DNA from: Bacteroidales bacterium
GTDB taxonomy: Bacteria; Bacteroidota; Bacteroidia; Bacteroidales; Bacteroidaceae
Assembly: GCA_015060905.1 (NCBI GenBank)
Contig: SUXQ01000001.1
Span: 159,256-223,255, forward strand
Length of the DNA stretch: 64,000 nt
Direction: 5' to 3'
Of this stretch, positions 1 to 19,148 are shown one piece after another; within the stretch, counting starts at the first letter, position 1, and every line of letters begins with the position of its first letter. The position numbers were made by a program, and so were the translations under genes. Below the pieces are notes generated by a model, which was not told the DNA's origin, did not search any database, and saw only the letters and a program-made list of their open reading frames with translations.

Positions 1-2045
1 AAGAATATCTGTCCTTGGTCCCATCCGTTATCATTTTGCTTGTATGGTTGTAGGGCGTTTGCCGCACACGAGGTGAGCATAAAGTCGCCCATGCGTCTTA
101 CGGCATTCTGCAAGGTTACGTGCCCCAATGTGCGCTGCATGTTGTGTGTCCAGCCGTTCTCCTCGAAAATGGCACACTTCATTGTGGTGTTGGGATTCCA
201 CTTGTGGAACAGCTCTTTCATCGTGCGCAACTCTTTCTCTACCTCCTGTCCGGCTGTCAGTGCGTCTGCCAACGGGTGGTAGTCCCAATAGTCGGCCTTT
301 CCGTCCAATGCCTTGAATAATCTCTCGCTGTTGGGCGACTCGGGACGCCACCATGCGGTGATGACAAGCTTCACCGACGGGTCTTTGCTCTTGATGGCGT
401 CGTGTAGAATGTTGAAGCGCTCAATGTATTGGTCGTATGTTGCGGGGTCGTCGCCCGAGTACATAACCTCTTCGTTGCCTATGCCTATGTACTTCACGCC
501 ATAGGGCTTCGGGTGGCCGTTCTTGGCGCGTATCTTGCCCCATTTGGTCTTTGTAGAACCGTTCAGATACTCAATCATGTCTGCTGCATCCTCGGGTGTC
601 TCGAAAATGTTTATCGCGAATGAGGGTGTGAAACCCGCCGCCTCGCAGAACTTTAGGAAATCCTCAATTCCGAATCCGTTTGTGGAGTATTTGTACCAAT
701 GGCCTCTGTAAGGCGGGCGTTTGTCGGGGTCGCCAATCATCTTTTTGAAACGATACTCGTTGGCATTAATCATGGTGCCGCCGTAGCGCAGGAATGTGAG
801 TCCCTGCTTCACCATTGCTTGCGAAATGTCGTTGCGATAGGGCAGTCCCTTGAAACGATCCTTGCCTGTGGTCATCAGTGTCACCTGGTCTATTTTCACA
901 GCTCCCTCCGCATCAATGTATATTGCCATGCGCGCCTTGTCGTCGTCGGTATTCGAGGTCAGCGTGAATGCGTGGCGTTTCCAGCTTTTCGATAAGCCGT
1001 TGATGCGGCAGCGGGCATACTCCTTCTTGCCGTCGGCACTCTCGAGCACCACGAAGACTTTTCCTTTGCACGAAATGTTCTTCGCATAGAAACGTCCCTC
1101 GAATTTCTGCCCTTTGCGCACAGCTATTCCCCAACGGTTAAGGCTGGCGTTGGCAATGCCCACTGCACCGCTGCCCGAAACAAATTCTATTGTCTGAGAA
1201 TTGCTGCCGTTGTAGGCATCGTTGCTGTCGAGAAGATAGTTCCCCTTTGCGTCGCCCTTCAAAGCTGCATCCCACTGCATGCTCACCTGCTCGGGAGTCT
1301 TTGCTGCAAGTGAAAGGCTCTTCCCGTCTATTTTTAAGTTGCCGAAGTGTGTATCGACGTTCCACACGCGCAGAGCTACACTGCCATTGAGCAGGTCGGA
1401 GTCGGACAGATGAAACACACACACGTCCTTGTTGTTCAAGAATACTTTCACCTCGCCGTTTCCTATTGTCGCTTTAAGGTTGTTCCACTCGGTGGGTGTG
1501 CAGCTCACAGGTACATCCACAATGTGTGACCAATTGTTTTTGTGCTTGCCAACAACTATCTTTTTGCCGTTGCCGGCAAGGCTTATTTCGTAGCCATAGA
1601 AACTGTCGGCACCTACACGCGGACGCGACACGCACAACAGCAGCCCCGCATTGCCCGAGCCGCTGCCCGGCTTGTTGAACTTCACATCAACCTCCACTGT
1701 ACCCTCGGAAACAGCCTTTTTGCTTACAAGTTTGGCTCCACCGTGTGCAAGCGAGAATATATTGTTGCCATTGACGCTCCATTTGCCGCCGTACACATCG
1801 AAATGGTCGAATAGGGGGTTGGGGACGGGCTCTTCGAAGCTCTCGCCGAAAATCTTTTGGTCGTAAAGACCACCGTAAATTTCGTGGTTCACATCTTCGA
1901 TGCACGAGCCGTAGAGGTAGGGGGTTATATTTTGCTCCACCTTCTCGGCATCGACCTTTACAAGCACCTCCTCGCCCTGAGCAAACATAAGGGAGGGAAC
2001 CATTAAAAGTGCCGCGGCGTATATAAGTTTCTTTATATGTAACAT
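1..2045 (-). CDS. GH51-type alpha-L-arabinofuranosidase, secreted (3' end beyond window)
   Basis: Exo-acting enzyme expected to release terminal L-arabinofuranose from arabinan or arabinoxylan. The gene starts at 2045 with a signal peptide (residues 1-22, ending FAQ) and runs off the left edge after 681 codons. Residues 40-75 match the family N-terminus (PYLYGSCIEDVNHEIYGGLY). A GNE motif places the acid/base Glu at about E525, and CAIFEENGW puts a candidate nucleophile at E628 or E629. Between them and the N-terminus, roughly residues 75-400, lie beta-rich carbohydrate-binding-like domains, which many Bacteroidetes members carry. It begins 35 bp after the sugar symporter gene and is probably the last gene of the glycyl radical enzyme operon. 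The family call is by motif; the substrate is inferred. Confidence 0.8.
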   Translation of the reverse strand, partial: MLHIKKLIYAAALLMVPSLMFAQGEEVLVKVDAEKVEQNITPYLYGSCIEDVNHEIYGGLYDQKIFGESFEEPVPNPLFDHFDVYGGKWSVNGNNIFSLAHGGAKLVSKKAVSEGTVEVDVKFNKPGSGSGNAGLLLCVSRPRVGADSFYGYEISLAGNGKKIVVGKHKNNWSHIVDVPVSCTPTEWNNLKATIGNGEVKVFLNNKDVCVFHLSDSDLLNGSVALRVWNVDTHFGNLKIDGKSLSLAAKTPEQVSMQWDAALKGDAKGNYLLDSNDAYNGSNSQTIEFVSGSGAVGIANASLNRWGIAVRKGQKFEGRFYAKNISCKGKVFVVLESADGKKEYARCRINGLSKSWKRHAFTLTSNTDDDKARMAIYIDAEGAVKIDQVTLMTTGKDRFKGLPYRNDISQAMVKQGLTFLRYGGTMINANEYRFKKMIGDPDKRPPYRGHWYKYSTNGFGIEDFLKFCEAAGFTPSFAINIFETPEDAADMIEYLNGSTKTKWGKIRAKNGHPKPYGVKYIGIGNEEVMYSGDDPATYDQYIERFNILHDAIKSKDPSVKLVITAWWRPESPNSERLFKALDGKADYWDYHPLADALTAGQEVEKELRTMKELFHKWNPNTTMKCAIFEENGWTHNMQRTLGHVTLQNAVRRMGDFMLTSCAANALQPYKQNDNGWDQGQIF

Positions 2046-2080
2046 AGTTGTAATTTTGTGGATATAAAATTTATGTATGA

Positions 2081-3391
2081 TTATTTAACAAGCTCTTTCT
2101 GTATCTGCTCAAGAGATTTTCCTTTAGTCTCAGGTAGCCACCATGCGAAGATAAGAGACGTTGCAGCTATCAGTGCAAAGAACGCGAATATGTACTCGCC
2201 GCCTACACCTAGGCACAAGGGGAAAAACCATGTGAGCAGTGCCGACCACACCCAGTGAGTCATGCTGCCGAATACCTGACCAACGGAACGGACGCTGTTG
2301 GGGAATACCTCGGCAATGACAACCCATATTGTTGCTCCTAAAGATATTGCAAAGAATGCCACGTAAGCACAGATACACAAAAGCAGATAGTAGCCCTCGA
2401 ACTCTTCAAGATAGAACCCTCGTGCAACCAAAGCCTGTGCGATCACCATTCCTACTGCGCCGATGGCAATAAGCGTGCGTCGTCCAAGTTTGTCAATCAG
2501 TGCCATTCCTATCATTGTAAAAGTGAGGTTGGTAAGTCCTACAATCACCGATTGCAACAACGCACCATCGCTGAACACTCCCGATTGTTCCAACAGTCGG
2601 GGAGCGTAGTAAAGAATAGCGTTAATACCGGTCAGTTGGTTAAGAGTAGCAATGAAGAATGCGATAAATATGGGTTTTCTGAATTTCTTCTGGAAGAATC
2701 CCTCTCTTTTTGTCGCCGATTCAATTTTAAAAGACTCCTTGATGGCTGCCATTTCTCCTTTAATATCCTTTTCGCCTGTCTTTGAGAAAACTATTTCGGC
2801 CTTCTCTTCCTTGCCCTGCGAAACGAGCCAACGTGGGCTCTCGGGAACAGTAAACAACAACAGAGTGAACAAGAGTGCGGGTACAGCCTCGCTTCCTAGC
2901 ATCCACTGCCAATCGTGTGCAACGCCCGAAATAAAATAGTTCGAAAAATATGCACACACAATTCCCAACACAATATTAAATTGGAAGAATGCGACAAAGC
3001 GTCCTCTCCACGACGATGGAGAAATTTCGGCAATATACATAGGACCTATTACCGAAGATGCGCCTACTGCCAATCCACCAAGGAAACGAAACACCATAAA
3101 TGCGTACCAATCAACTATGACTGCGCTGCCAATGGCCGAAATAAGATAAAGCATGCCTATAACTTTCATTGAATTCAGACGGCCATACTTCTGTGCAGGC
3201 TTTCCACAGGTGAGCGCGCCGAGAATGGTTCCCATCAGCGCGGTGGTAATAGTAAAGCCGTGCCAGAAATTATTTAATTCATAAACCTGTTGTATAGCCT
3301 TTTCGGCACCCGAAATGACAGCAGTATCAAAGCCGAACAAAAGGCCTCCGAGCGATGCTACAAAAGCAACCCAGAACATATAACCTTTCAT
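2081..3391 (-). CDS. Sugar porter MFS transporter (XylE/AraE/GalP-like H+ symporter)
   Basis: Twelve-helix inner-membrane symporter for a monosaccharide, probably a pentose or hexose. Sugar-porter signatures are present: RFLGGLAVGASS followed by PMYIAEISPSSWRGR, PESPRWL in the central loop, GRR in the second half and PETKGKSLEQIQ near the C-terminus. The start is taken as the ATG at 3391 (protein MKGYMFW...) because it overlaps the stop of the glycyl radical enzyme gene by one base (TAATG), which implies translational coupling; a longer reading from 3436 would lie inside that gene. Length, 436 aa, is slightly short for the family. Arabinose is the obvious candidate substrate given the GH51 gene downstream, but this is inference. 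Confidence 0.9.
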   Translation of the reverse strand: MKGYMFWVAFVASLGGLLFGFDTAVISGAEKAIQQVYELNNFWHGFTITTALMGTILGALTCGKPAQKYGRLNSMKVIGMLYLISAIGSAVIVDWYAFMVFRFLGGLAVGASSVIGPMYIAEISPSSWRGRFVAFFQFNIVLGIVCAYFSNYFISGVAHDWQWMLGSEAVPALLFTLLLFTVPESPRWLVSQGKEEKAEIVFSKTGEKDIKGEMAAIKESFKIESATKREGFFQKKFRKPIFIAFFIATLNQLTGINAILYYAPRLLEQSGVFSDGALLQSVIVGLTNLTFTMIGMALIDKLGRRTLIAIGAVGMVIAQALVARGFYLEEFEGYYLLLCICAYVAFFAISLGATIWVVIAEVFPNSVRSVGQVFGSMTHWVWSALLTWFFPLCLGVGGEYIFAFFALIAATSLIFAWWLPETKGKSLEQIQKELVK

Positions 3392-5460
3392 TATATTTTG
3401 TATTTTATTCGTTCGATAATATGGTCTTGATAGCACTCGTCAAGCTCAACGAAATATCCGCTCCATCCCCACACGCGTACAATCAGGTTCTTGTGCAGCT
3501 CGGGGTGGATTTTTGCATCGAGCAGTTTCTCTCTGTTCAGCGTGTTCAACTGCAGTTGGTGGCCTCCCATGCGTATATATGAGCGTATGAGCATTGCCAG
3601 CTTTTCAACAGTCTCGTCGTTGCGGAAGATGCTCTCGTCCAATTCAATTGTGAGAGGGCCGCCGTTTATGGCATCTTGCAGGTTGGGCTTCGAGAATGAA
3701 CGCATCACCGATACAGGCCCTTTCTGCTTAAGGAACATGCTCGGGGTGAAGTTGGCGGGAAGAACTTCGCCTGCATTTCTGCCGTCGGGGGTGGCGGGGA
3801 GGTCTTTTGCGTGGAAAATATAATACATCGCTGTTCCTGTTCCTGCTCGCCATATTCCGCCTCTTTCGTTGCGTTTGCCACGCAGACCCTCGGCAAAAGA
3901 GTTCAAGAGTGCGCAACCAATAGAGTCGGCCTCGTCGTTGTCCACGCCCATTTTGGGTGCTTCGTTTCTCAGACGCTCTTGCAACTGCTCGTGTCCTGCG
4001 AAATTGTTTTTCAGTGCGTCGGTAAGCTCCTCCAATGAAATTGACTTCTCCTCGAAATAGAATTTCTTGATGGCTGCAAGCGAGTCGGCGGCAGTGGAAA
4101 GGCCTGTTCCGTGAACACCGTAGTTATTGGAGTTTCCACCCTCCGAAATATCTTTTGCCTTTTCTATTGTTCCGCCCATGATGGTCGAAAGGAAGGGTGC
4201 CGGCGCAAAGTACAGGTTGTCGTGTGCCGAGGTTATTCGCTCACACTCCTCATTTATCTTCTCCACAATGTAGGCATAGAAACTCTCGTAGCTGTCGTAG
4301 TTGCCCAGATTGTTCACTGCGTTGCTCACAATTTCGGCAAACGAAAGGGCGTCGATGTTGGGTATCTCCATTCCGTTTTTGGGGATGATGAACTCCCAGC
4401 ATGCTGCAACAACATAGTTGTACGCATCCTCTTCGGTGTAACCGAGTTTCAACAATCCGGGAATTACAACATCGTCGTTGTCGTATTGCGGGAATCCCAA
4501 TCCGCGCTTTGTAAGCTCTGCGCCCAATTTATATATCTCCAATGGGGTGTTCGAGTCGCATCTGAGGTTTATTTTGGGGTCTATGAGGTTGAGCTCGTAG
4601 CTCGCCTTCAGACACATGCGCGACACTTCGTTGAACAGGCAGTTGCCCTCTGCGTCGCGTCCGCCAAGAACAAGGCTCTGACCGTTGTCGCCCTGTTGCA
4701 TTCCCACGTAAAGGTCGCTGTCTTTGTTGCAGGCTAGGAAGAACTCCATGATAAGCTCGTATGCCTGTTCCTCGGTGAGCGTGCCTTTCTTGATGTCGTT
4801 TTTGTAGTAGGGGTAAATATATTGGTCGAAACGACCGAGGGTGTTGTGGTAACAATCGCTCTCCCACAATGCAAAATGTACTATACGCAGCAACTGCAAT
4901 GCTTCGTGGAGCGTTGTTGCTCCGTTTGAATGGATGGCGCCAAGCACTTCGGCCACGTTGTCAAGTCCTGCGTTTTTAGCACATGCCTGATATTTGAGAA
5001 TGAAACTCTGAACCGCTTCGATGCTCTCTTTGGCTGCAACAAGAAACTCAGTTTGCTCGGTTGTCAGTGTCTCGTCTTTCAGTCGTGCCTCGATGCTCTC
5101 TTTTCTTTTTCCCAATCCGTCGGCAATGATGCCTTCGTAGTCAGCCGAGAGGTTCGAAACTGTTCCGCGCTCGTGCAGTGTGTGCTTGCTGCGAATATCT
5201 TCCCACTCCTCTTCGGTGAAAATAGAGGGTATGCGGGTGATTGTACGTGTTGCAACAATGCTTTCGCCATCAATGATTATAGGCGTCTCGGCCTCGAGCA
5301 GTGCCTTGAGCATGTGTGCGCTTCTTGTAACCGGGGATACTCCCTCTTCGCGGAATTTCTCATTCATGCGGTCAAGCCCAAACTCTTCGGGCGTGTGCCT
5401 GAACTCGTGGTGCTTCTCGGCTCTTATGAATGAGCGTAGTGTTTCAATTCTAGGTGTCAT
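3391..5460 (-). CDS. Glycyl radical enzyme of the CxE (dehydratase/lyase) type, substrate unknown
   Basis: Oxygen-sensitive radical enzyme of the pyruvate formate-lyase superfamily, 689 aa, shorter than PFL (about 760) or the diol dehydratases (about 790). The thiyl cysteine is C354 in AACWEF, followed two residues later by E356. This C-x-E arrangement is known from glycerol, propanediol, choline, isethionate and hydroxyproline enzymes, whereas PFL has a Cys-Cys pair. The radical glycine is G665 in RVWGWSGYF, a Trp-rich variant of the usual RVxGY(S/A). PKMGVDNDEAD (502-512) and TPDGR (557-561) are other superfamily landmarks. The gene overlaps its activase by 4 bp and a sugar symporter by 1 bp. 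It is neither PFL nor an obvious diol dehydratase. The operon suggests a sugar, sugar acid or polyol substrate. Confidence 0.88.
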   Translation of the reverse strand: MTPRIETLRSFIRAEKHHEFRHTPEEFGLDRMNEKFREEGVSPVTRSAHMLKALLEAETPIIIDGESIVATRTITRIPSIFTEEEWEDIRSKHTLHERGTVSNLSADYEGIIADGLGKRKESIEARLKDETLTTEQTEFLVAAKESIEAVQSFILKYQACAKNAGLDNVAEVLGAIHSNGATTLHEALQLLRIVHFALWESDCYHNTLGRFDQYIYPYYKNDIKKGTLTEEQAYELIMEFFLACNKDSDLYVGMQQGDNGQSLVLGGRDAEGNCLFNEVSRMCLKASYELNLIDPKINLRCDSNTPLEIYKLGAELTKRGLGFPQYDNDDVVIPGLLKLGYTEEDAYNYVVAACWEFIIPKNGMEIPNIDALSFAEIVSNAVNNLGNYDSYESFYAYIVEKINEECERITSAHDNLYFAPAPFLSTIMGGTIEKAKDISEGGNSNNYGVHGTGLSTAADSLAAIKKFYFEEKSISLEELTDALKNNFAGHEQLQERLRNEAPKMGVDNDEADSIGCALLNSFAEGLRGKRNERGGIWRAGTGTAMYYIFHAKDLPATPDGRNAGEVLPANFTPSMFLKQKGPVSVMRSFSKPNLQDAINGGPLTIELDESIFRNDETVEKLAMLIRSYIRMGGHQLQLNTLNREKLLDAKIHPELHKNLIVRVWGWSGYFVELDECYQDHIIERIKYKI

Positions 5461-6209
5461 AGTATTAATAGTTTAATGTTTCTTTCGGTAAATGTGTCGT
5501 GTATTTCGGGGACTTTATCCTCGTCGAATTCCGGGGCATAATCTATTCCTACCATGGGATATTTCGCTCCGGCAGTCTTGTGGTATCTTAGCAGCTCCAC
5601 GCGTTGCAATCCTTTGGCTCCTTGCAGGAGTTCGGCTGTTGCTTGCATGTTTTCAACAGTGTCATTAACACCGGGAATAAGCGGTATTCGTGCAACAAAC
5701 TCTTTCCCCGACTCACATAGGCTTTTTAGGTTGGCTTTTATCAGCTTGTTGTCTACGCCTGTGTATCTCTTGTGCATTTCGCTGTCGGCAAGTTTTACAT
5801 CGAAAAGTATCAGTTCTACTCTTTCCAATACTCTCGCGAATGTTTTTTCCGATGCGTGTCCGCTGGTCTCTACGGCTCGGTGTATGCCCGAGAGTTTATC
5901 AAGTACGTTGCATAGAAAGTCGCTCTGCATAAGAGGCTCGCCGCCTGTAAATGTTACTCCGCCACCGCTCTCCTTGAAAATATCCTCGTCTCTTCGCAAC
6001 TTTGTTGCAAGTTCTTCGGCGCTAATCTCATAACCGCAAGTTTCGGTTCTTCCTTGCTTGGTCAATGGTTGGGGACGGGGTAGCCAGCCCTCGGGGTTGT
6101 GGCACCACGCGCATCGCAAAGGACAACCTTTCAGAAAAACTGTAGTTCTGATTCCCGGGCCATCGTTTACGGCAAACTCTTCGATGCTGAATATAATCCC
6201 AGAGCTCAT
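5457..6209 (-). CDS. Glycyl-radical-enzyme activating enzyme (radical SAM)
   Basis: Installs the glycyl radical on the partner enzyme by reductive cleavage of S-adenosylmethionine. The radical SAM motif is C29-x3-C33-x2-C36 (CPLRCAWC), preceded by NDGPGIRTTVFLKG, which is typical of activases. GGGVTFTGGEPL follows near residue 85. At 250 aa it is short and lacks the ferredoxin-like double 4Fe-4S insert that most activases of CxE dehydratases carry, so it resembles PFL activase in size. Its last four bases overlap the first four of the enzyme gene (ATGA), making the two an obvious pair. It is first in the operon; a LacI-like operator lies 45-58 bp upstream of its start. Confidence 0.92.
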   Translation of the reverse strand: MSSGIIFSIEEFAVNDGPGIRTTVFLKGCPLRCAWCHNPEGWLPRPQPLTKQGRTETCGYEISAEELATKLRRDEDIFKESGGGVTFTGGEPLMQSDFLCNVLDKLSGIHRAVETSGHASEKTFARVLERVELILFDVKLADSEMHKRYTGVDNKLIKANLKSLCESGKEFVARIPLIPGVNDTVENMQATAELLQGAKGLQRVELLRYHKTAGAKYPMVGIDYAPEFDEDKVPEIHDTFTERNIKLLIL

Positions 6210-6552
6210 TTTGCAAGGGTTTTTTAGTGATTGGTGTTTGTAATTCTTTGGATGTTAATCGATTAGCTGTATGGTTGCGGCCTCGGACTTAAAGGCAAAC
6301 GTGGGCTGCGTGCAATCATCCAATCTCTTCCTCGGAAAACTCTGTAAAAATATAAAAAAAATCAAAGAAGATAAAGAAAAACAGATGAATTTGGGGATTT
6401 TAGGCTTGTTTGTGATTTAAGGTGATTGTTGGAGTGAAGCAAAAGAAAAAGAGGACACCCCGTTTTTTGTAGAAAAAATGTTCTGCAGTGCAACTAAAGA
6501 TTTCTCTGTCTGCCCGCATGGACAATACATGGAATTTGCCTAAACAGCCTGT
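6210..6552. other. Gene-free upstream region of the glycyl radical enzyme operon
   Basis: This 343-bp stretch separates the activase gene from the DUF5106 gene. Both genes are on the minus strand, so it holds the control region of the former and the 3' end of the latter. Apart from the palindrome at 6254-6267 it shows an A-rich segment (about 6345-6390) and no open frame with coding character. No good match to the TTTG/TAnnTTTG promoter was found. Confidence 0.5.
6254..6267. promoter_or_regulatory. LacI-like operator, GTTAATCGATTAGC
   Basis: A 14-bp inverted repeat centred on a CG step, symmetric at every position but one pair (T6255 against G6266). Its form, an AT-rich arm on each side of a central CG, is what LacI-family regulators recognise. 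It lies 45-58 bp upstream of the activase start codon, where a repressor could block transcription of the whole sugar and glycyl radical operon. No LacI gene is in the window, so the regulator is inferred. Confidence 0.4.
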
Positions 6553-12786: not shown

Positions 12787-14301
12787 TTATAACTGTTCTA
12801 CTTCTATTATTTTAGGGTCATCGCCACTCTGTGGCCAAGCAATTTCGTCTTTCTTTCCATTAATAAACAGGTACAATGAAGTGCCTTCCGGCATCCAATC
12901 CTGTGTATAGGTTATGCCAAACTCCACCTTTTTACCGCTATTGTCTGCATTTCGTGGAATTAGGACAATCTTGTACCAATGTTCAGAGTCGGCAACCCAA
13001 GTAGCCGGGTCTTCCAACTGAGTTTCAGGCGCATCACTTCTATAAACTTTTATTTCGTAATCACTCGGAGCTTGATTGTGGACGGGAGTCCAATGTTGTC
13101 CCGCAGGTTTATCCATCTTAAACCACACGATAAAAGCATCCTCTTCGGGGTTTGAACCATTGTTATACTTCATCTGCGGAACTGATGTAATTACACCCGA
13201 AGCATTCGTGTAATCGGGGACAACAGGGTTGTGATATGTCGGATACGCAAATTCACCGCGTTCCCACAAATTTTCATTCTCATCATATTCCCAATCAAGA
13301 ACTTCATAATTAATCTCAAGACCACTGGTAATTCCCACAATGTTGAAACGGTATATGTGATTGCGTACAATATTCGTTTCGCTATTCTCGATAAAATCAC
13401 CATTTGAATCGTAAGAACCGAAATGTATTGAATTGGGAAACTCAAGCGGCGTCATTGTCCCGTCTCCAAGAACTATGCTTATGTTTGGACGGTTCTCGGC
13501 AGTGTGAAGCACATTAAACTCGGGTACATAAAGCCAATAACGTTGGTCTTCCACATACTCAACAAAACCAAGAGGGGTTGAAAAGTGACTGTGATATGCT
13601 CTCAAGCAGTTCTCTTGATCAAGCTCCGTCGTAGATGTAACACTGCTCCAACCGGTCGGTACACAGTAGCCACGGTTATTATAATGGTTCAGCACAGCAT
13701 TCTCCAATGTAAATCCGTTTGCTATCATCTCATTACTAAGGATTACCTCGATTTTTGCCATCGAGCGCATGAGATTAATGGTGCCGGCATCTTGCAACTC
13801 GCTACCATTTACCTCAAAGAGTTTGATACCCCACATAGGTATGTATCCATCGGGATATGCAACGTTGCTGAGTTCAAAATAGAGTTCTTCGATATTGCTA
13901 ACAGTGTTGGGACAATTTGCAAGAACCATAATCTTATATTTTGTACCAATAGTAAGGTTCAAGTCTGTAACGTCACCCGCAAAACGGTATTCTGTCGCGC
14001 TTACCGGCCAATGCATAAGGCTGTTCACCTCGCCCAGATAGGCATTTGTCTCGCTGAAGAACAGAACCCTGAGCCCACCGTATGCTATACGATTGTCAAA
14101 TGGTGTTGCTTCTTCAGAGACATACCCATCATCCCAAGCAGCCCTTGACTGCTTTCGGGCGTCATCCACTGTCAGTGTAAATGTAACCTTTCTCGCGATT
14201 CCATCACTTTCAATGCAAATTGCATCATCCATAATGGAATTACACGCAGAGAACGTACAAATTGACAATAGGATAAATAAATATTTCAGTTTCTCAAACA
14301 T
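12787..14301 (-). CDS. Fimbrial minor/tip subunit, Mfa-like lipoprotein (504 aa)
   Basis: Exported lipoprotein with lipobox FSAC at about Cys 20. Residues 30-200 show a fimbrillin-type domain: a start rich in beta strands, an Arg site in ARKQSRAAWDD after the leader, the segment YGGLRVLFFSETNAYLGEV and the later SMAKIEVILSN, which corresponds to the RACAKVxV segment of fimbrillins. A loop RNHIYRFNIVGI near residue 330 matches the C-terminal RNHxYxxNVT feature of the Mfa1/FimA superfamily. It starts 4 bp after the stop of the FimB/Mfa2-like gene. Most likely a minor subunit equivalent to Mfa3/Mfa4. Confidence 0.78.
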   Translation of the reverse strand: MFEKLKYLFILLSICTFSACNSIMDDAICIESDGIARKVTFTLTVDDARKQSRAAWDDGYVSEEATPFDNRIAYGGLRVLFFSETNAYLGEVNSLMHWPVSATEYRFAGDVTDLNLTIGTKYKIMVLANCPNTVSNIEELYFELSNVAYPDGYIPMWGIKLFEVNGSELQDAGTINLMRSMAKIEVILSNEMIANGFTLENAVLNHYNNRGYCVPTGWSSVTSTTELDQENCLRAYHSHFSTPLGFVEYVEDQRYWLYVPEFNVLHTAENRPNISIVLGDGTMTPLEFPNSIHFGSYDSNGDFIENSETNIVRNHIYRFNIVGITSGLEINYEVLDWEYDENENLWERGEFAYPTYHNPVVPDYTNASGVITSVPQMKYNNGSNPEEDAFIVWFKMDKPAGQHWTPVHNQAPSDYEIKVYRSDAPETQLEDPATWVADSEHWYKIVLIPRNADNSGKKVEFGITYTQDWMPEGTSLYLFINGKKDEIAWPQSGDDPKIIEVEQL

Positions 14302-14305
14302 AGCA

Positions 14306-15346
14306 TCACTTCATTGATTGGTTATTCAAAACAACTCTCCAAGAATTTACAATTATTGAAGATGAAATCCAGCGTCCTGCCTCGTCGAGGAAGAATGTCA
14401 TATTATACTCATCCTGACGGTCAAGATACTCTTGATTGCTCATATCCTTGTTGTAGTTACCTTTTACAAGCAGAGCATAGTCAATAAGGGGAACAGAAAG
14501 AACCACATCTCCCTTCTCGAGGTTTCTTACTACAAGGATGGGGCGGTTACCCTCGACGAGGCGGCCTGTTGTCATCTCGGCTACCGCTACACCTACCGAT
14601 GATGCATCTCGCGTCTCCTCGTCATTGTAAATATCGGCATTAATATCGGCGCTGCCTGTTTGTAGGCTCCAAGGTTTGTAAATGATAAGCTCGTCGTCAA
14701 GAAGCGAGTTGTCATAATTCATGTAACCATTGTAGTCCTGTATCTCGAAAGAGAAGAGGTCGGGGTTCACATCTTCACCCGAAAGCTGCTGAAGGATTAC
14801 ACGCACAACATTGGTGTTCTTAGTTAGCGAAATTGTCTTATAGTGGACACCCGGCTCATCGGTCAATGTAAACTTCGCCGAACCGTGGAAAAGCGGAGCA
14901 AGGTCCTTGTCTACTATTCCGTTGCCATTCGCCGAGACACGGTTCATGCGACACTTCAGTTCCTCTATTGTTGTTACACCCAACCGGGTTTGAGGTGTAA
15001 CGAACGACTCGCCGTCGCCGATACCGCACCAAGCAAGGAATTGATACTCTCCGGCTTTAAGTTCAACGGGCAAAGTGAAGTTTTCATCGGCAAGAGCCTC
15101 GCCACTTTCCGCATCCTCATAAACCAGCACACCCGAATTGTCAAATACATATAGAGCAACAGATGTTACCTCGTGCGCAAAAGCATCGGCAAACTTCATA
15201 TTCCTGTCATACTTGAACTTTATCCTGTAGTGCACCGAGCAGTCGCCTTCATCGTCAAAAACAAAGCTGTTGTCGCACGATGTAAAGACTACCGCCAACA
15301 GAGTCAGCAACACTCCTATTCTGCTGAAAAATGATGTTTTGTTCAT
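14306..15346 (-). CDS. FimB/Mfa2-family fimbrial anchor lipoprotein
   Basis: Outer-membrane anchor and length regulator of the fimbrial shaft, 346 aa. Lipobox FTSC is at about Cys 24. CSVHYRIKFKYDRNMKFADAF near residue 35 and VALYVFDNSGVLVYED are characteristic of the Mfa2/FimB family; so are the C-terminal QEYLDRQDEYNMTFFLD and WRVVLNNQ. It follows the major subunit gene after a 197-bp gap that contains two inverted repeats. The expected partner is the major fimbrillin directly upstream. Confidence 0.88.
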   Translation of the reverse strand: MNKTSFFSRIGVLLTLLAVVFTSCDNSFVFDDEGDCSVHYRIKFKYDRNMKFADAFAHEVTSVALYVFDNSGVLVYEDAESGEALADENFTLPVELKAGEYQFLAWCGIGDGESFVTPQTRLGVTTIEELKCRMNRVSANGNGIVDKDLAPLFHGSAKFTLTDEPGVHYKTISLTKNTNVVRVILQQLSGEDVNPDLFSFEIQDYNGYMNYDNSLLDDELIIYKPWSLQTGSADINADIYNDEETRDASSVGVAVAEMTTGRLVEGNRPILVVRNLEKGDVVLSVPLIDYALLVKGNYNKDMSNQEYLDRQDEYNMTFFLDEAGRWISSSIIVNSWRVVLNNQSMK

Positions 15347-15434
15347 GGCTGTATCTATTTTTATATATTATCTGGACTAATTGTACAGTAGAAATTTCAA
15401 ATTTGGTGGAAGCTCTCGATATTGGGCTTCTGTT

Positions 15435-15460
15435 ACGTACCTCTCTTTGCACCGGTACGT
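15435..15460. repeat. 7-bp perfect inverted repeat ACGTACC ... GGTACGT
   Basis: Arms at 15435-15441 and 15454-15460 with a 12-nt spacer, in the gap between the major fimbrillin gene and the anchor gene. It lies about 90 bp upstream of the anchor start and could be an operator or part of an mRNA structure. A T-run on its right makes a plus-strand terminator conceivable, but no plus-strand gene needs one. Confidence 0.4.
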
Positions 15461-15498
15461 CAAGTGCTTTTTTTGAAAGTGAAAATTATTGTTTTTTT

Positions 15499-15528
15499 AT
15501 GTAGTGTGAGCAACAGCCCACACTACAT
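15499..15528 (-). promoter_or_regulatory. Intra-operon hairpin after the major fimbrillin gene
   Basis: Perfect 10-bp stem (ATGTAGTGTG at 15499-15508 and CACACTACAT at 15519-15528) with a 10-nt loop. It starts 16 bp after the fimbrillin stop. On the minus strand it is followed by A, not U, so it is not a standard terminator. It is more likely an mRNA stabiliser or partial attenuator that raises the amount of major subunit over anchor and tip subunits. Confidence 0.55.
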
Positions 15529-15543
15529 AAATAGGGTTTTGTA

Positions 15544-17091
15544 TTACTTCAAAGAAACATTCTGGTTAACGAGTTTCCATGTGAGAACATTAATTCTTGC
15601 AGAGATGAAAGATTCTGTGTCGCTAGGAGTAACAGGCTCATCAATTTCGCTGTTACCGTTATAAACCGGAGTACCGAGGCCGGTAATTTTTGTCACATTA
15701 AAGACATAAGAGTGGTTACGTACAACACCTACAGCTTCATTAAGGTGTTTGATGTCGGCAAAGTAATATGCCATACCTTCTTTCCAAACCTGAGCCTTCT
15801 CAAGTGTAGCAAGAGCACTATTTACATCAACTGCAGTCGCGTCATTGTATGTATCGCCATCCTTAACTTTCCAAGTCTTAGCTGAGGCATCAGTGGTGAG
15901 TTTGTAGGTTACAGTGTAGCTATCAACGCCCGATGTACCGGCTGCAACAAGTTCAATATCGGCAGGAGCTATTGATGTGTATTCATTGTCTTTATATGCA
16001 TAGTATTTTGAAGCAAGAGCAGAAGCGATGCTGGCCTTCAAGCCCTCTACGGTAACATATTCACCAAGAAGTTTTACTACCTCGATAGGTGCTCCGTTCT
16101 CATCTGTAATCTGTGCCTTTACAATAACCTTTGTGTTTTCTCCGCTTGTATTCTCGAGGCAGTAATCCACTGCATTTACAGCATTGCTGATACCTGCCCA
16201 ACTAAACTTCTTATTAAGAGATACATCTCCGCCTACTGTAACAGATTCTGCCCAGAATGAACGCTTGTAAGCCTCGATATTCCAACCTGTGATACCAAGC
16301 TCTGCGTCGGTCCAAGAGGCATTAATGCTCTTAACAAGGTTCGAGTGACTCATTGTTGTATTGAGGTCCCAACCAAGAACCTTTACGAAGAAGTTTGTGC
16401 CTTTTTTATATTGATTTTCGATACCTGTATCGAAAAGTTCTTCCTCCTGTGTCATTGCAACCTTTGCACAGACACGCTCAATATATATATCTACCGGAGA
16501 AGCCATTGCACCATTCTCAGTAGAAGATATATTAGCCAATGTAATAGGGGTTGCATCCATTATGCTGGAACCGCTCAAGTAAACAGAATTGCTCATCACA
16601 AAACCGCCGTCATCGTTAGCATCAGCCTCGGCAACAAGTTTAGACTTAAGAGTTGAAAGTGCCAGAGACTCACCGCTGTAATCCCAGTTTACAACAGCTA
16701 CCACCTTTGCAGGATTGGCATTCTTGTTGTTCTTGATTGTGAGAACTGTATTGGTGATGGTCTCTACATTATCCGGCTTGTTACCCTCATCTTTAAAATC
16801 CTCCTTTACAATGTAATTAACACCTGTACCGCCAATTTCAGCAGATACATTGAATGGAGAACCGGCATTGTCGAAGAAGAAGAAGATTGCCTTGTTTACT
16901 GTCTGCTCTTTCTCTGTGCCATCTTCGTAACCGTTGGCACGCGTTGCATCGTATGCAGAATTTACATTTACCGCAATGTACGATGTTGTTGTATCGCCTG
17001 AAGAAACTAAAGCGTTCGCATCTTCGTCATTGGTGCAACTGAAAAACATTGCTGTTGCCAATAGGCCCAAAAATAATTTGTTAGTCTTCAT
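15544..17091 (-). CDS. Mfa1-type major fimbrillin (515 aa lipoprotein precursor)
   Basis: Shaft subunit of a type V (Mfa/Fim) pilus. The leader ends in MFFSC (lipobox, Cys 19), giving a lipidated precursor. After about 35 residues comes DATRANG, an Arg site where a trypsin-like protease would remove the N-terminal strand before polymerisation. Conserved features are IERVCAKVAMTQEEE, GWDLNTTMSHSNLVK and the C-terminal VVRNHSYVFNVTKITGLGTPV followed by the donor-strand-like INVLTWKLVNQNVSLK. The gene is the third of the operon after DUF3575 and DUF3868 genes and is followed by a hairpin and the Mfa2-type anchor. This order is standard in Bacteroidales. Confidence 0.9.
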   Translation of the reverse strand: MKTNKLFLGLLATAMFFSCTNDEDANALVSSGDTTTSYIAVNVNSAYDATRANGYEDGTEKEQTVNKAIFFFFDNAGSPFNVSAEIGGTGVNYIVKEDFKDEGNKPDNVETITNTVLTIKNNKNANPAKVVAVVNWDYSGESLALSTLKSKLVAEADANDDGGFVMSNSVYLSGSSIMDATPITLANISSTENGAMASPVDIYIERVCAKVAMTQEEELFDTGIENQYKKGTNFFVKVLGWDLNTTMSHSNLVKSINASWTDAELGITGWNIEAYKRSFWAESVTVGGDVSLNKKFSWAGISNAVNAVDYCLENTSGENTKVIVKAQITDENGAPIEVVKLLGEYVTVEGLKASIASALASKYYAYKDNEYTSIAPADIELVAAGTSGVDSYTVTYKLTTDASAKTWKVKDGDTYNDATAVDVNSALATLEKAQVWKEGMAYYFADIKHLNEAVGVVRNHSYVFNVTKITGLGTPVYNGNSEIDEPVTPSDTESFISARINVLTWKLVNQNVSLK

Positions 17092-17129
17092 AGTCTTTTT
17101 TTTTAGATGGTTATTAATTTATTATTCTT

Positions 17130-18548
17130 TTATTTCATTTCATTTACCTGTTTAATAGCATCTGCTGCCTCTTTTACACCCATTTTGTGAGCTTTATCCA
17201 ACAACTCCAATGCTTTGTCATAATCCTTTGTGAAAGCTGCATGGATGCCGCGTGCATAAATTGCTTCGGGTGAGTCTCCGGCCTTTTCAAGATGTCTTTT
17301 TGCGCTTGTTATATCATTGTTCTGCATCTCTGATATTGCAGCGTTGAGGTTTGCTGCCGGGTCATTCGGATACATACGTACTGCTGTCTCGAACACATCG
17401 TTAAGCTCGTGTGTGTCATTTTCATACTGTTGTGCTAATACATAAAACTCCTCAAGACTCAGTTTCTGCGGACTTTCGGCGAATACTTTCTTTATATCCT
17501 CTATGTTGGTATAAGAACGGATAATGTACTCGACCTTATAGTCCGAACGGCGCAAGCCGGGGTAACATTCACTATACATCACTTTATAGTCATCGGCGTA
17601 TGTTGATTTTATCTTCCACTCCTTGTTGTCGGGCTCACGGTCGTCATCTATGAGGCTAAGAATAGCATCTTTGTTAGGAAGCGAAGAGGTCTCGACAAAT
17701 ACTCTCAGGCCGGCCCAATCCTCGGGCTCGTAAGCAGTTTGGATAAAATCGGGAGCAAACTTGTACAAACCCTGAACATACTTCTTTAAAGCCTCTGTAC
17801 GTCCCTTTGCAAGGTCTGCATTCTTCTTGTAGCTGCCCTCGGGAGAGGCAAATCCCTTGATTGAAAGTGATTTCAGGACAATGTCATTGTCGTTTTTCAC
17901 AGAATCGATAGTTGCAGTGATTTTTGCAATCTCTCGCTCGTTGCCAAGATAAGAAAGATTTATATCGGTCTTGTTTACAACAAAGTTAATATATGCCGAA
18001 CCACTGAGTGAACGCGACTTCTCAAGTTCTGCCTTTGGACGCACATATACATACTTTGGCGAGAAAACATGCTCTTTGAAAATTCCAATCTGCGACGACT
18101 GCTCATCTACAATTTTAGTGCAACAGCCATAATCGCTACGATGCAATACCAAGAAAGCTCCGTTCATCCAATCTTTGTAAGGAACAACTACACTGTAATC
18201 CATATTCTCGGGCAATTCCGATGAGCGATAACTCTTACCATTCTCGTTTGCGATAATACTCTTGTTGTTACGTACATAATAGTAGTAACGGTTACGGCCG
18301 TATACTCCTACTGATGAGAGTTCAACACTATCCTTACCACTTACAATAATAGGAGTAAAGAGGATTGCACGGTTCGAAGAAACATCAAGAGACGAAAAAT
18401 CAACATTCATATTTACTGCCATATATTCGCCATTGCGTTTCATACGTAGGTTCTCTACTTTCACGCCATCGACACTCTGTGCATCAACAGCAGAAAGAAA
18501 GACAAATTGGGTCAATAATAGAAATAATATACGTTTCATTGTCGTCAT
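17130..18548 (-). CDS. DUF3868 domain protein with OmpA-like C-terminal half, fimbrial locus
   Basis: Exported protein of about 470 aa (signal peptide ending SAVDAQ). The N-terminal half (VKVENLRMKRNGEYMAVNMNVDFS and the paired cysteines in RSDYGCC) is the DUF3868 pattern found next to fimbrillins. The middle part (SIKGFASPEGSYKKNADLAKGRTEALKKYV) resembles an OmpA-family peptidoglycan-binding domain, and the last 100 residues look like TPR helices (FETAVRMYPNDPAANLNAAISEM). Two starts are possible, 18548 and 18539 (MKRILF...); the gap to the upstream gene is only 3 bp with the first. It probably assists fimbria assembly or cell-wall anchoring. Confidence 0.82.
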   Translation of the reverse strand: MTTMKRILFLLLTQFVFLSAVDAQSVDGVKVENLRMKRNGEYMAVNMNVDFSSLDVSSNRAILFTPIIVSGKDSVELSSVGVYGRNRYYYYVRNNKSIIANENGKSYRSSELPENMDYSVVVPYKDWMNGAFLVLHRSDYGCCTKIVDEQSSQIGIFKEHVFSPKYVYVRPKAELEKSRSLSGSAYINFVVNKTDINLSYLGNEREIAKITATIDSVKNDNDIVLKSLSIKGFASPEGSYKKNADLAKGRTEALKKYVQGLYKFAPDFIQTAYEPEDWAGLRVFVETSSLPNKDAILSLIDDDREPDNKEWKIKSTYADDYKVMYSECYPGLRRSDYKVEYIIRSYTNIEDIKKVFAESPQKLSLEEFYVLAQQYENDTHELNDVFETAVRMYPNDPAANLNAAISEMQNNDITSAKRHLEKAGDSPEAIYARGIHAAFTKDYDKALELLDKAHKMGVKEAADAIKQVNEMK

Positions 18549-18551
18549 TTT

Positions 18552-19148
18552 TTAAAAAAGATACACTAAGTTAATTGCAGCTTTTGTCGGACCAACGTAA
18601 TGGTGGTCTTTATCCTCTTCGACCTTTTTGCCGCAGCCCACACACTCAAAAGTGTCATACATCGTATAACTGTAGCCAAATCCAATCTCCGCTTCAATAT
18701 TCCAATGCTTGCCAAGTATCCAGGAATATCCATAAGCAATACCGGCACCTGCAAACCAACCTTGAAAACGGCTCTCACTGAGCTTTGAAAAATCGGTACC
18801 CAAGAATGAAATATTGTTCTTCAAGTTTCCGACATTGTACTGTCCGCCATGGAGGTGTAAAGCAACGAAATGTCCCGAGAAGCGGTCACAAAACCAATAT
18901 CTGAGTTCCGGCTGTGCAAACCAATGTTTCCACTTACGACCATGCGACATATCCCACGCATTGAAATTGCCCGACACGTCAAGTGACCATTTTGGAGCCA
19001 AGCCAAACTCTACACCGGCATTGATATTTGCTGTTGCATCATATACGATATTCGTTTTAACCGCAATGTCCTGCGCCTTTGTCTCCTGAACAAAGAATAT
19101 CGCCATCGTCAACAGCAGCAAACAAGTTAATTTTTTACTAACACTCAT
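18552..19148 (-). CDS. DUF3575 domain outer-membrane beta-barrel protein, first gene of fimbrial operon
   Basis: Protein of 198 aa with a signal peptide ending ETKAQ. The segment IAVKTNIVYDATANINAGVEFGLAPKW and the following W-rich region (KWKHWFAQPELRYWF) are typical of DUF3575, an OmpW/OmpA-like eight-strand barrel family that is regularly the first gene of Mfa-type fimbrial operons. The last residue is Phe (NLVYLF), as expected for a barrel substrate of the BAM machinery. The upstream region (19149-19411) is AT-rich with a repeated GAAAATATTT but has no clear consensus promoter. Confidence 0.85.
   Translation of the reverse strand: MSVSKKLTCLLLLTMAIFFVQETKAQDIAVKTNIVYDATANINAGVEFGLAPKWSLDVSGNFNAWDMSHGRKWKHWFAQPELRYWFCDRFSGHFVALHLHGGQYNVGNLKNNISFLGTDFSKLSESRFQGWFAGAGIAYGYSWILGKHWNIEAEIGFGYSYTMYDTFECVGCGKKVEEDKDHHYVGPTKAAINLVYLF

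Follow-up and report, generated by a model that had tools for sequence, protein, structure and literature searches.

A compact class of glycyl radical enzymes encoded beside sugar importers fits no characterised class compared here and may act on free pentoses

A 64,000-nucleotide stretch of a gut-type Bacteroidales bacterium genome (GCA_015060905.1, contig SUXQ01000001.1, positions 159,256 to 223,255; hereafter the window) begins with an operon in which a short, oxygen-sensitive glycyl radical enzyme (GRE) is encoded with its activase, a sugar porter and a secreted arabinofuranosidase. Sequence comparison makes it almost certain that this GRE belongs to a class of C-x-E enzymes matching none of the characterised classes compared here, and the constant partner of these short GREs is a sugar importer. 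The reading favoured here, held tentatively and at somewhat less than even probability, is that the enzyme cleaves a C-O bond of an imported free monosaccharide, the likeliest being an aldopentose, with L-arabinose first and D-xylose second. GREs are described in PMC11574389 as carrying out important anaerobic reactions in the gut, where many abundant members lack an assigned function.

Results

The GRE operon

The operon comprises the following features.

3391..5460, minus strand: short GRE, 689 aa (PF02901, PF01228)
4399..4401, minus strand: codon of Cys354, the expected thiyl radical site, invariant in 64 aligned sequences
4393..4395, minus strand: codon of Glu356, the expected general base of the C-x-E motif, invariant in 64 aligned sequences
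3466..3468, minus strand: codon of Gly665, the expected glycyl radical site in RVWGWSGYF, invariant in 64 aligned sequences (PF01228)
5457..6209, minus strand: radical S-adenosylmethionine GRE activase, 250 aa, with CPLRCAWC (PF04055, TIGR02494)
2081..3391, minus strand: XylE-like sugar porter of the major facilitator superfamily (PF00083, TIGR00879)
2045 to the window start (open reading frame (ORF) 3-2045), minus strand: secreted alpha-L-arabinofuranosidase of glycoside hydrolase family GH51 (ASD1, PF06964, PDB)

Coupling of the GRE to its activase and to a symporter had been proposed in the original prediction, made from the letters of the window alone, and is borne out by the gene boundaries: the GRE start and activase stop overlap by 4 nt (ATGA), and the GRE stop overlaps by 1 nt (TAATG) with the porter ATG at 3391, a likelier start than the GTG at 3436 given by the ORF list. 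Promoter- and terminator-like sites within the operon occur at chance level only, and the gene 3' of the operon is on the opposite strand.

The GRE falls within the PFL-like superfamily (PF02901, 333.5 bits against a cut-off of 24.3; PF01228, 70.5 against 22.2, residues 571-671) and carries the C-x-E eliminase motif as C354-W355-E356, together with a glycyl loop containing G665. The thiyl-radical role of Cys354 is that of the established GRE mechanism. The activase exceeds the cut-offs of PF04055 and TIGR02494 (246.6 bits against 174.35) and has the CxxxCxxC motif. The porter belongs to the TIGR00879 subfamily (341.9 bits against 237.8) and passes PF00083; its top PDB match is XylE (273 bits), and its score against the PRK10077 equivalog, the XylE D-xylose symporter, is below the cut-off (353.2 of 608 bits). 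The gene after it had been correctly recognised as a secreted GH51: ASD1 scores 73.4 bits (cut-off 22.2) and, in the full gene, PF06964 scores 52.6 (27), PDB arabinofuranosidases are matched as well, and a signal peptide was identified by eye. The window edge truncates this gene, which when complete encodes 810 aa (L083:13869-16301). Among the four operon genes there is no microcompartment, alcohol dehydrogenase or aldehyde dehydrogenase gene, so the locus is free of them, as predicted, to that extent, the rest of the genome not having been searched for them.

The short GREs form a class of their own

Contigs scanned with the GRE encoded 191 relatives, the best 80 of which were kept, from Bacteroidota, Verrucomicrobiota, Bacillota and Spirochaetota. 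This gave 81 short GREs with that of the window, and 64 of them (the window and 63 relatives, covering the four phyla) were aligned. Invariant throughout are N103, Y204, H205, N206, K296, N298, R300, C354, W355, E356 and N368 and, in the glycyl loop, W664, G665, W666, S667, G668, Y669 and F670. Both radical motifs given in the original prediction, including the tryptophan at each that had been singled out as unusual, are therefore fixed in every aligned member.

In NCBIfam no GRE equivalog cut-off was reached by the window enzyme, nor was that of the PFL2-3 subfamily. Scores were 329.8 of 678.2 bits for TIGR01774, 280.7 of 1100 for HypD (NF043068), 239.3 of 1050 for CutC (TIGR04394), 252.7 and 237 of 1000 for the sulfopropanediol dehydratases HpfG/HpsG (NF048009/NF048011) and 279.1 of 1109 for the PflD type (NF007437, PRK09983). 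PFL has a Cys-Cys catalytic pair; the window enzyme, with C-W-E at its active site, scores 86.4 of 994.2 bits against TIGR01255, a model on which the genome's own PFL reaches 1100.

The reference tree held 47 rows, namely 28 of the 64 aligned short GREs and 19 reference rows, nine of them named (CutC, three HypD, HpfG, PFL, glycerol dehydratase (GD), PflD and 8id0) and the rest without a class name. Names came from NCBIfam for CutC, two HypD, HpfG and PFL and from the PDB for four chains; the label propanediol dehydratase (PD)-like is our own. All 28 short GREs lie on one side of a branch with SH-aLRT (Shimodaira-Hasegawa-like approximate likelihood ratio test) support of 100, apart from the GD, PflD, HypD, CutC, HpfG and PFL rows. 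Scores far below the NCBIfam cut-offs and a separate clade together leave the class unassigned, as had been predicted, and the clustering with PFL or HypD named beforehand as the refuting outcome does not occur in this tree. Isethionate lyase (IslA/IseG) appears among the PDB and fold matches, and the tree holds no IslA row.

The nearest reference row, L121, sits on a long branch and its placement is uncertain. This divergent 671-aa GRE of Hungatella hathewayi (L121:8971-10986) has ACWEP and RVWGFSAYF motifs and an activase nearby; by eye from the ORFs, its surroundings look like a polysaccharide cluster with glycosyltransferases, an epimerase, a thiamine pyrophosphate-type enzyme and a flippase, and it is perhaps a biosynthetic GRE. 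Mid-score GREs from several genomes (L137, L138, L140-L142) carry a CQE or CGE motif and a loop of the RVWGFS, RVCGFS or RVGGFS type; mid-score loci L139 and L143-L145 had no GRE frame and were excluded.

In a sample of 344 genomes of the order, 52 matched the GRE at E 1e-60. Only the window genome (G000) and G329 exceeded 900 bits, so phylogenetic profiling has no power there; the remaining 50 scored 206-252 bits at 29-34% identity. Elsewhere, 11 of 299 genomes of the Robinsoniella family matched at E 1e-120, and a plasmid search returned 138 records, all below 60% identity. Two Diplocloster genomes (G004, G005) are rich in GREs, with 16 and 15 PF02901 matches, some of which are fragments. 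Among the literature matches listed, no title or abstract concerned this GRE class; subscription journals are thinly covered there, so the class cannot be called unpublished on this basis.

In the fold comparison the window enzyme shows the GRE fold. PflD with malonate and PflD with 1,5-anhydromannitol-6-phosphate (8id0) are in the top three by VIA Z, the latter third (rank 30 by Foldseek E-value), and these PflD matches lie within 1 VIA Z of glycerol dehydratase and are thus tied with it. They would suit a lyase of the YbiW/PflD kind whose substrate is an anhydro-pentitol without phosphate or a comparable cyclic ether, as would the haloacid dehalogenase (HAD) acid phosphatase gene that follows the GRE in L050, with a relative in L047. 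The short-GRE clade is separate from PflD, the PRK09983 score is as low as given above, and no phosphotransferase system (PTS) or fructose-6-phosphate aldolase was noted in the annotated neighbourhoods, where no search was aimed at them; such an activity is judged highly unlikely.

A sugar importer is the constant neighbour

Neighbours were searched at 87 loci, 49 from Bacteroidota and Verrucomicrobiota and 38 others, with 30 query proteins at a 100-bit threshold. Loci L057 and L157-L163, for which no phylum is recorded, were counted as others; partial matches at contig ends (the L006 porter, the L010 activase) and a weak FucI-like match in L082 were scored as misses; and regulators, like a GH31 in L162, were identified by eye from ORFs. 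The activase was found at 47 and the porter at 46 of the 49 Bacteroidota/Verrucomicrobiota loci. Of the three loci lacking a porter, two run out at the contig edge and one has a partial match at its edge. Aldose 1-epimerase follows at 20, a GntR regulator at 16, GH51 at 13 and GH127 at 12 (either at 19), and a class II aldolase at one; AraA, XylA, FGGY kinase, aldo-keto reductase (AKR) and FucI-like isomerase were found at none of the 49 with the queries used. The sugar link of the class is strong. Co-conservation, whose absence had been named beforehand as a refuting outcome, is clear for the symporter and partial for GH51; neither GH51 nor GH127 was seen near any of the eight enzymes closest to that of the window in the tree (L003-L005, L007, L009, L012-L014), some of which are on short contigs. 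The description of the locus as an arabinoside-utilisation operon suits the window genome and part of the other lineages, and not all of them.

A second tree of 71 rows added six of seven further Lachnospiraceae-type loci (L159, without a clean GRE frame, was excluded). With 14 of 70 rows labelled for GH51/GH127, the label changes seven times, which implies repeated gain or loss of the association.

All 38 other loci have the activase. Around it were found Rbs-type ATP-binding cassette ATPases (14), LacI regulators (12), FGGY kinases (8), class II ketose-phosphate aldolases (7), AKRs (6), FucI-like isomerases (5, no PDB match found), DeoC (3), GH51 or GH127 (3), AraA (2) and XylA (2). At L064 and L065, AraA, an FGGY-type kinase and an AraD-type protein are divergent from the GRE; XylA exceeds its NCBIfam cut-off at L070 and L162, as does XylB at L162; and GH51 lies directly upstream of the GRE at L076. 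AraA by L064/L065, XylA by L070/L162 and the arabinosidases make a pentose the likeliest substrate, and the flanking of 4 of the 38 other loci by AraA or XylA likewise favours one. The pentose link of the class is moderate.

These loci also bear on two schemes in which the GRE would act later. A pentose could be reduced to arabinitol or xylitol, whose terminal diol the GRE would dehydrate to a 2-deoxypentose for a kinase and DeoC to convert to acetaldehyde and triose phosphate. DeoC, an AKR resembling L-glyceraldehyde 3-phosphate reductase and a zinc-type alcohol dehydrogenase accompany the GRE at L048, L075 and L078, with an FGGY kinase also at L075 and L078, and the chemistry is the known diol-dehydratase reaction. 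The scheme is nevertheless unlikely: two AKR queries found nothing at the 49 Bacteroidota/Verrucomicrobiota loci, the His, His-Ser and Asp of diol dehydratases are replaced by Asn, Tyr-His and Asn, and the epimerase near 20 of the 49 points to an aldose.

Alternatively, a pentulose-1-phosphate could be split into dihydroxyacetone phosphate and glycolaldehyde, and the glycolaldehyde reduced to ethylene glycol, which the GRE would dehydrate to acetaldehyde. This would resemble the fucose/propanediol scheme, one carbon shorter, and the class II ketose-phosphate aldolases near 7 of the 38 loci (four of which share 33-41% identity with YdjI) would fit it, as would L160, where a FucI-like isomerase, a ribokinase-type kinase and an iron-type alcohol dehydrogenase accompany the aldolase; the two tryptophans could also make the pocket smaller. 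No such isomerase or kinase was found with the queries at the 49 loci, however, the single aldolase there (L007) looks like an ordinary class II fructose-bisphosphate aldolase and is on the other strand, and loci bearing AraA or XylA would need no glycolaldehyde formation, all of which makes ethylene glycol a very unlikely substrate.

Finally, the arabinosidases could be bystanders in pectin loci, the GRE dehydrating another released sugar (L-rhamnose, a uronic or a branched sugar) or a sugar acid. Neighbouring GH106, GH88, heparinase-like and GH36 genes and a SusD protein encoded in the same run of co-directional genes at L005 are consistent with this, as opposed to the AraA and XylA neighbours and the scatter of GH51/GH127 over the tree; the proposal is considered quite unlikely.

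Activases of the class

Over the 90 residues that follow the core motif of the window activase, no auxiliary ferredoxin motif (C..C..C...C) was found, and such motifs are absent from 37 of the 40 Bacteroidota/Verrucomicrobiota activases delivered by the ORF caller. The three that keep them, at L047, L050 and L051, go with GREs that branch with the Bacillota row L055. Other activases have two ferredoxin motifs in 27 of 30 cases, the exceptions being L064, L065 and L069. This pattern supports one coherent lineage in which the activase has apparently been reduced to the core cluster. Directly after the short GRE at two of the loci named above lies the HAD acid phosphatase gene (L047:10076-10561, L050:10082-10639), PF12689 having been tested in L050 and L047 assigned by a shared BLAST cluster.

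Pentose pathways in the window genome and other carriers

Neither AraA nor XylA was detected in the window genome (2.54 Mb, 87.5% complete), XylA having been searched for with TIGR02630, which matched in control genomes and in 9 of 24 carrier genomes. Its sole full-length FGGY kinase is of the rhamnulokinase type (490.7 of 527.95 bits) and adjoins RhaA and RhaD, each over a cut-off. In such a genome the GRE is the only operon enzyme placed to act on the imported sugar. There are two PF06964 genes, and in 13 of the 24 Bacteroidota/Verrucomicrobiota carrier genomes neither AraA nor XylA exceeded its cut-off.

The rhamnulokinase-type kinase, RhaA and RhaD form a rhamnose operon at G000:C15:174000-192000 (L117:7637-12279), together with a transporter identified by eye. 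Elsewhere in the window, positions 12787-19148 hold a fimbria-type cluster with two Mfa2-like anchors, a Fimbrillin_C protein, and DUF3868 and DUF3575 proteins.

Discussion

The operon encodes uptake, a glycosidase, an activase and the GRE only, with a mutarotase in other loci, and a free sugar is the simplest reading of the substrate. That the substrate is a free sugar is judged probable, and that it is a pentose an even proposition; the bond broken and the product are likewise read from gene context. As their families suggest, the GH51 would release arabinose and the XylE-like porter would import it, and the activase, again from family knowledge, would form the glycyl radical on Gly665. Cys354 would then abstract a hydrogen from a carbinol carbon while Glu356 removed the hydroxyl proton, and the adjacent C-O bond would break with water or the ring oxygen as leaving group, the latter as inferred for YbiW and PflD, giving a C5H8O4 deoxy-keto-sugar or a 2-deoxy-lactone. 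L-arabinose and D-xylose differ only at C4 and could yield the same 4-keto-5-deoxy product. The product could be taken on to triose phosphate and a C2 aldehyde by the reductases, isomerases, kinases and ketose-phosphate aldolases that are encoded nearby in Bacillota and Spirochaetota. The aldolase, kinase, isomerase and reductase neighbours fit the pentitol and ethylene glycol schemes too, so any one named product or exact reaction is at best a long shot.

Several observations weigh against radical cleavage of a free pentose. The completeness of the window genome makes its absences weak, and it holds a second, marginal FGGY_N match (29.4 of 28.8 bits). AraA is equally common in GRE-bearing Bacteroidota/Verrucomicrobiota (over its cut-off in 5 of 23 genomes) and in the order sample (76 of 344), and is present in 14 of 17 GRE-bearing Bacillota/Spirochaetota genomes. 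Arabinosidases were not seen near the closest tree neighbours of the window enzyme, as noted above. Sugars of other kinds are suggested by GH106 at three Verrucomicrobiota loci, a GH39-like gene at four Bacteroidota loci, and GH88 and GH36 elsewhere. At E 1e-30 no NCBIfam model is reached by the kinase that adjoins AraA in L064, leaving an AraB identity unsupported, and the Bacteroidota operons yielded no enzyme that would process a deoxy-keto-sugar further. That the GRE replaces AraA was also considered and dropped as unsupported, given the equal AraA frequencies.

The data describe a compact GRE class that crosses phyla and has an invariant, distinctive active site, and its short gene context points to a small set of candidate substrates. 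It is possible, if doubtful, that the class dehydrates or ring-opens free pentoses and so opens a non-canonical route for anaerobic pentose breakdown in bacteria of the gut and rumen. Were free arabinose or xylose the substrate of a radical enzyme, the anaerobic use of pentoses would gain a branch that annotation by similarity of name is likely to miss, and this route would occur in bacteria some of which apparently lack both AraA and XylA. The prediction can be checked with one purified enzyme pair.

Comparison with known systems

The glycerol and 1,2-propanediol dehydratases (GD 1r8w, PD 5i2g) are about 100 residues longer than the window GRE. Their Gly-His, His-Ser and Asp correspond to Asn103, Tyr204-His205-Asn206 and Asn368 at the aligned positions of the short GREs. 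In GD numbering, His164, His281-Ser282 and Asp447 are residues that we take to bind substrate; the window enzyme has none of them at these positions (that of His164 was read from PD-like and other rows, since the GD row begins at residue 236). Unlike GD and PD, the short GREs have tryptophan flanking both radical motifs, and the window operon has no dehydrogenase partner. Several invariant pocket residues of the short GREs also differ at aligned positions from GD, PD-like, PflD, YbiW, HypD, CutC and HpfG. The trans-4-hydroxyproline dehydratase HypD and the choline lyase CutC are, like the window enzyme, C-x-E GREs of gut anaerobes, and both are separate from the short GREs in the tree.

The ydjEFGHIJ stretch of Escherichia coli encodes the YdjI aldolase, the YdjH kinase, the YdjG AKR and the YdjJ zinc-type alcohol dehydrogenase, and the same kinds of enzyme adjoin several Bacillota short GREs; aldolases of four short-GRE loci are 33-41% identical to YdjI over 235-324 residues. 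No GRE is annotated in the ydj stretch, and the window operon has none of the ydj-type genes.

C-x-E GREs in general are held to work as proposed for IseG in PMC6453916, namely that the thiyl radical takes the carbinol hydrogen, that Glu deprotonates the hydroxyl and that the neighbouring group is expelled, the conserved Glu being proposed as the base by analogy with C-O and C-N lyases. YbiW and PflD are 1,5-anhydrohexitol-6-phosphate lyases, whose cleavage of anhydrohexitol phosphates yields 1-deoxyfructose-6-phosphate (PMC12441222, citing Ma et al.). The two PflD rows branch by themselves, and YbiW was aligned with the short GREs and is absent from the tree. The substrates of these two lyases are described as phosphorylated by the PTS on import (PMC12441222), in contrast to the free sugar favoured here. 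PflD with the 8id0 ligand is a precedent for a sugar-cleaving GRE.

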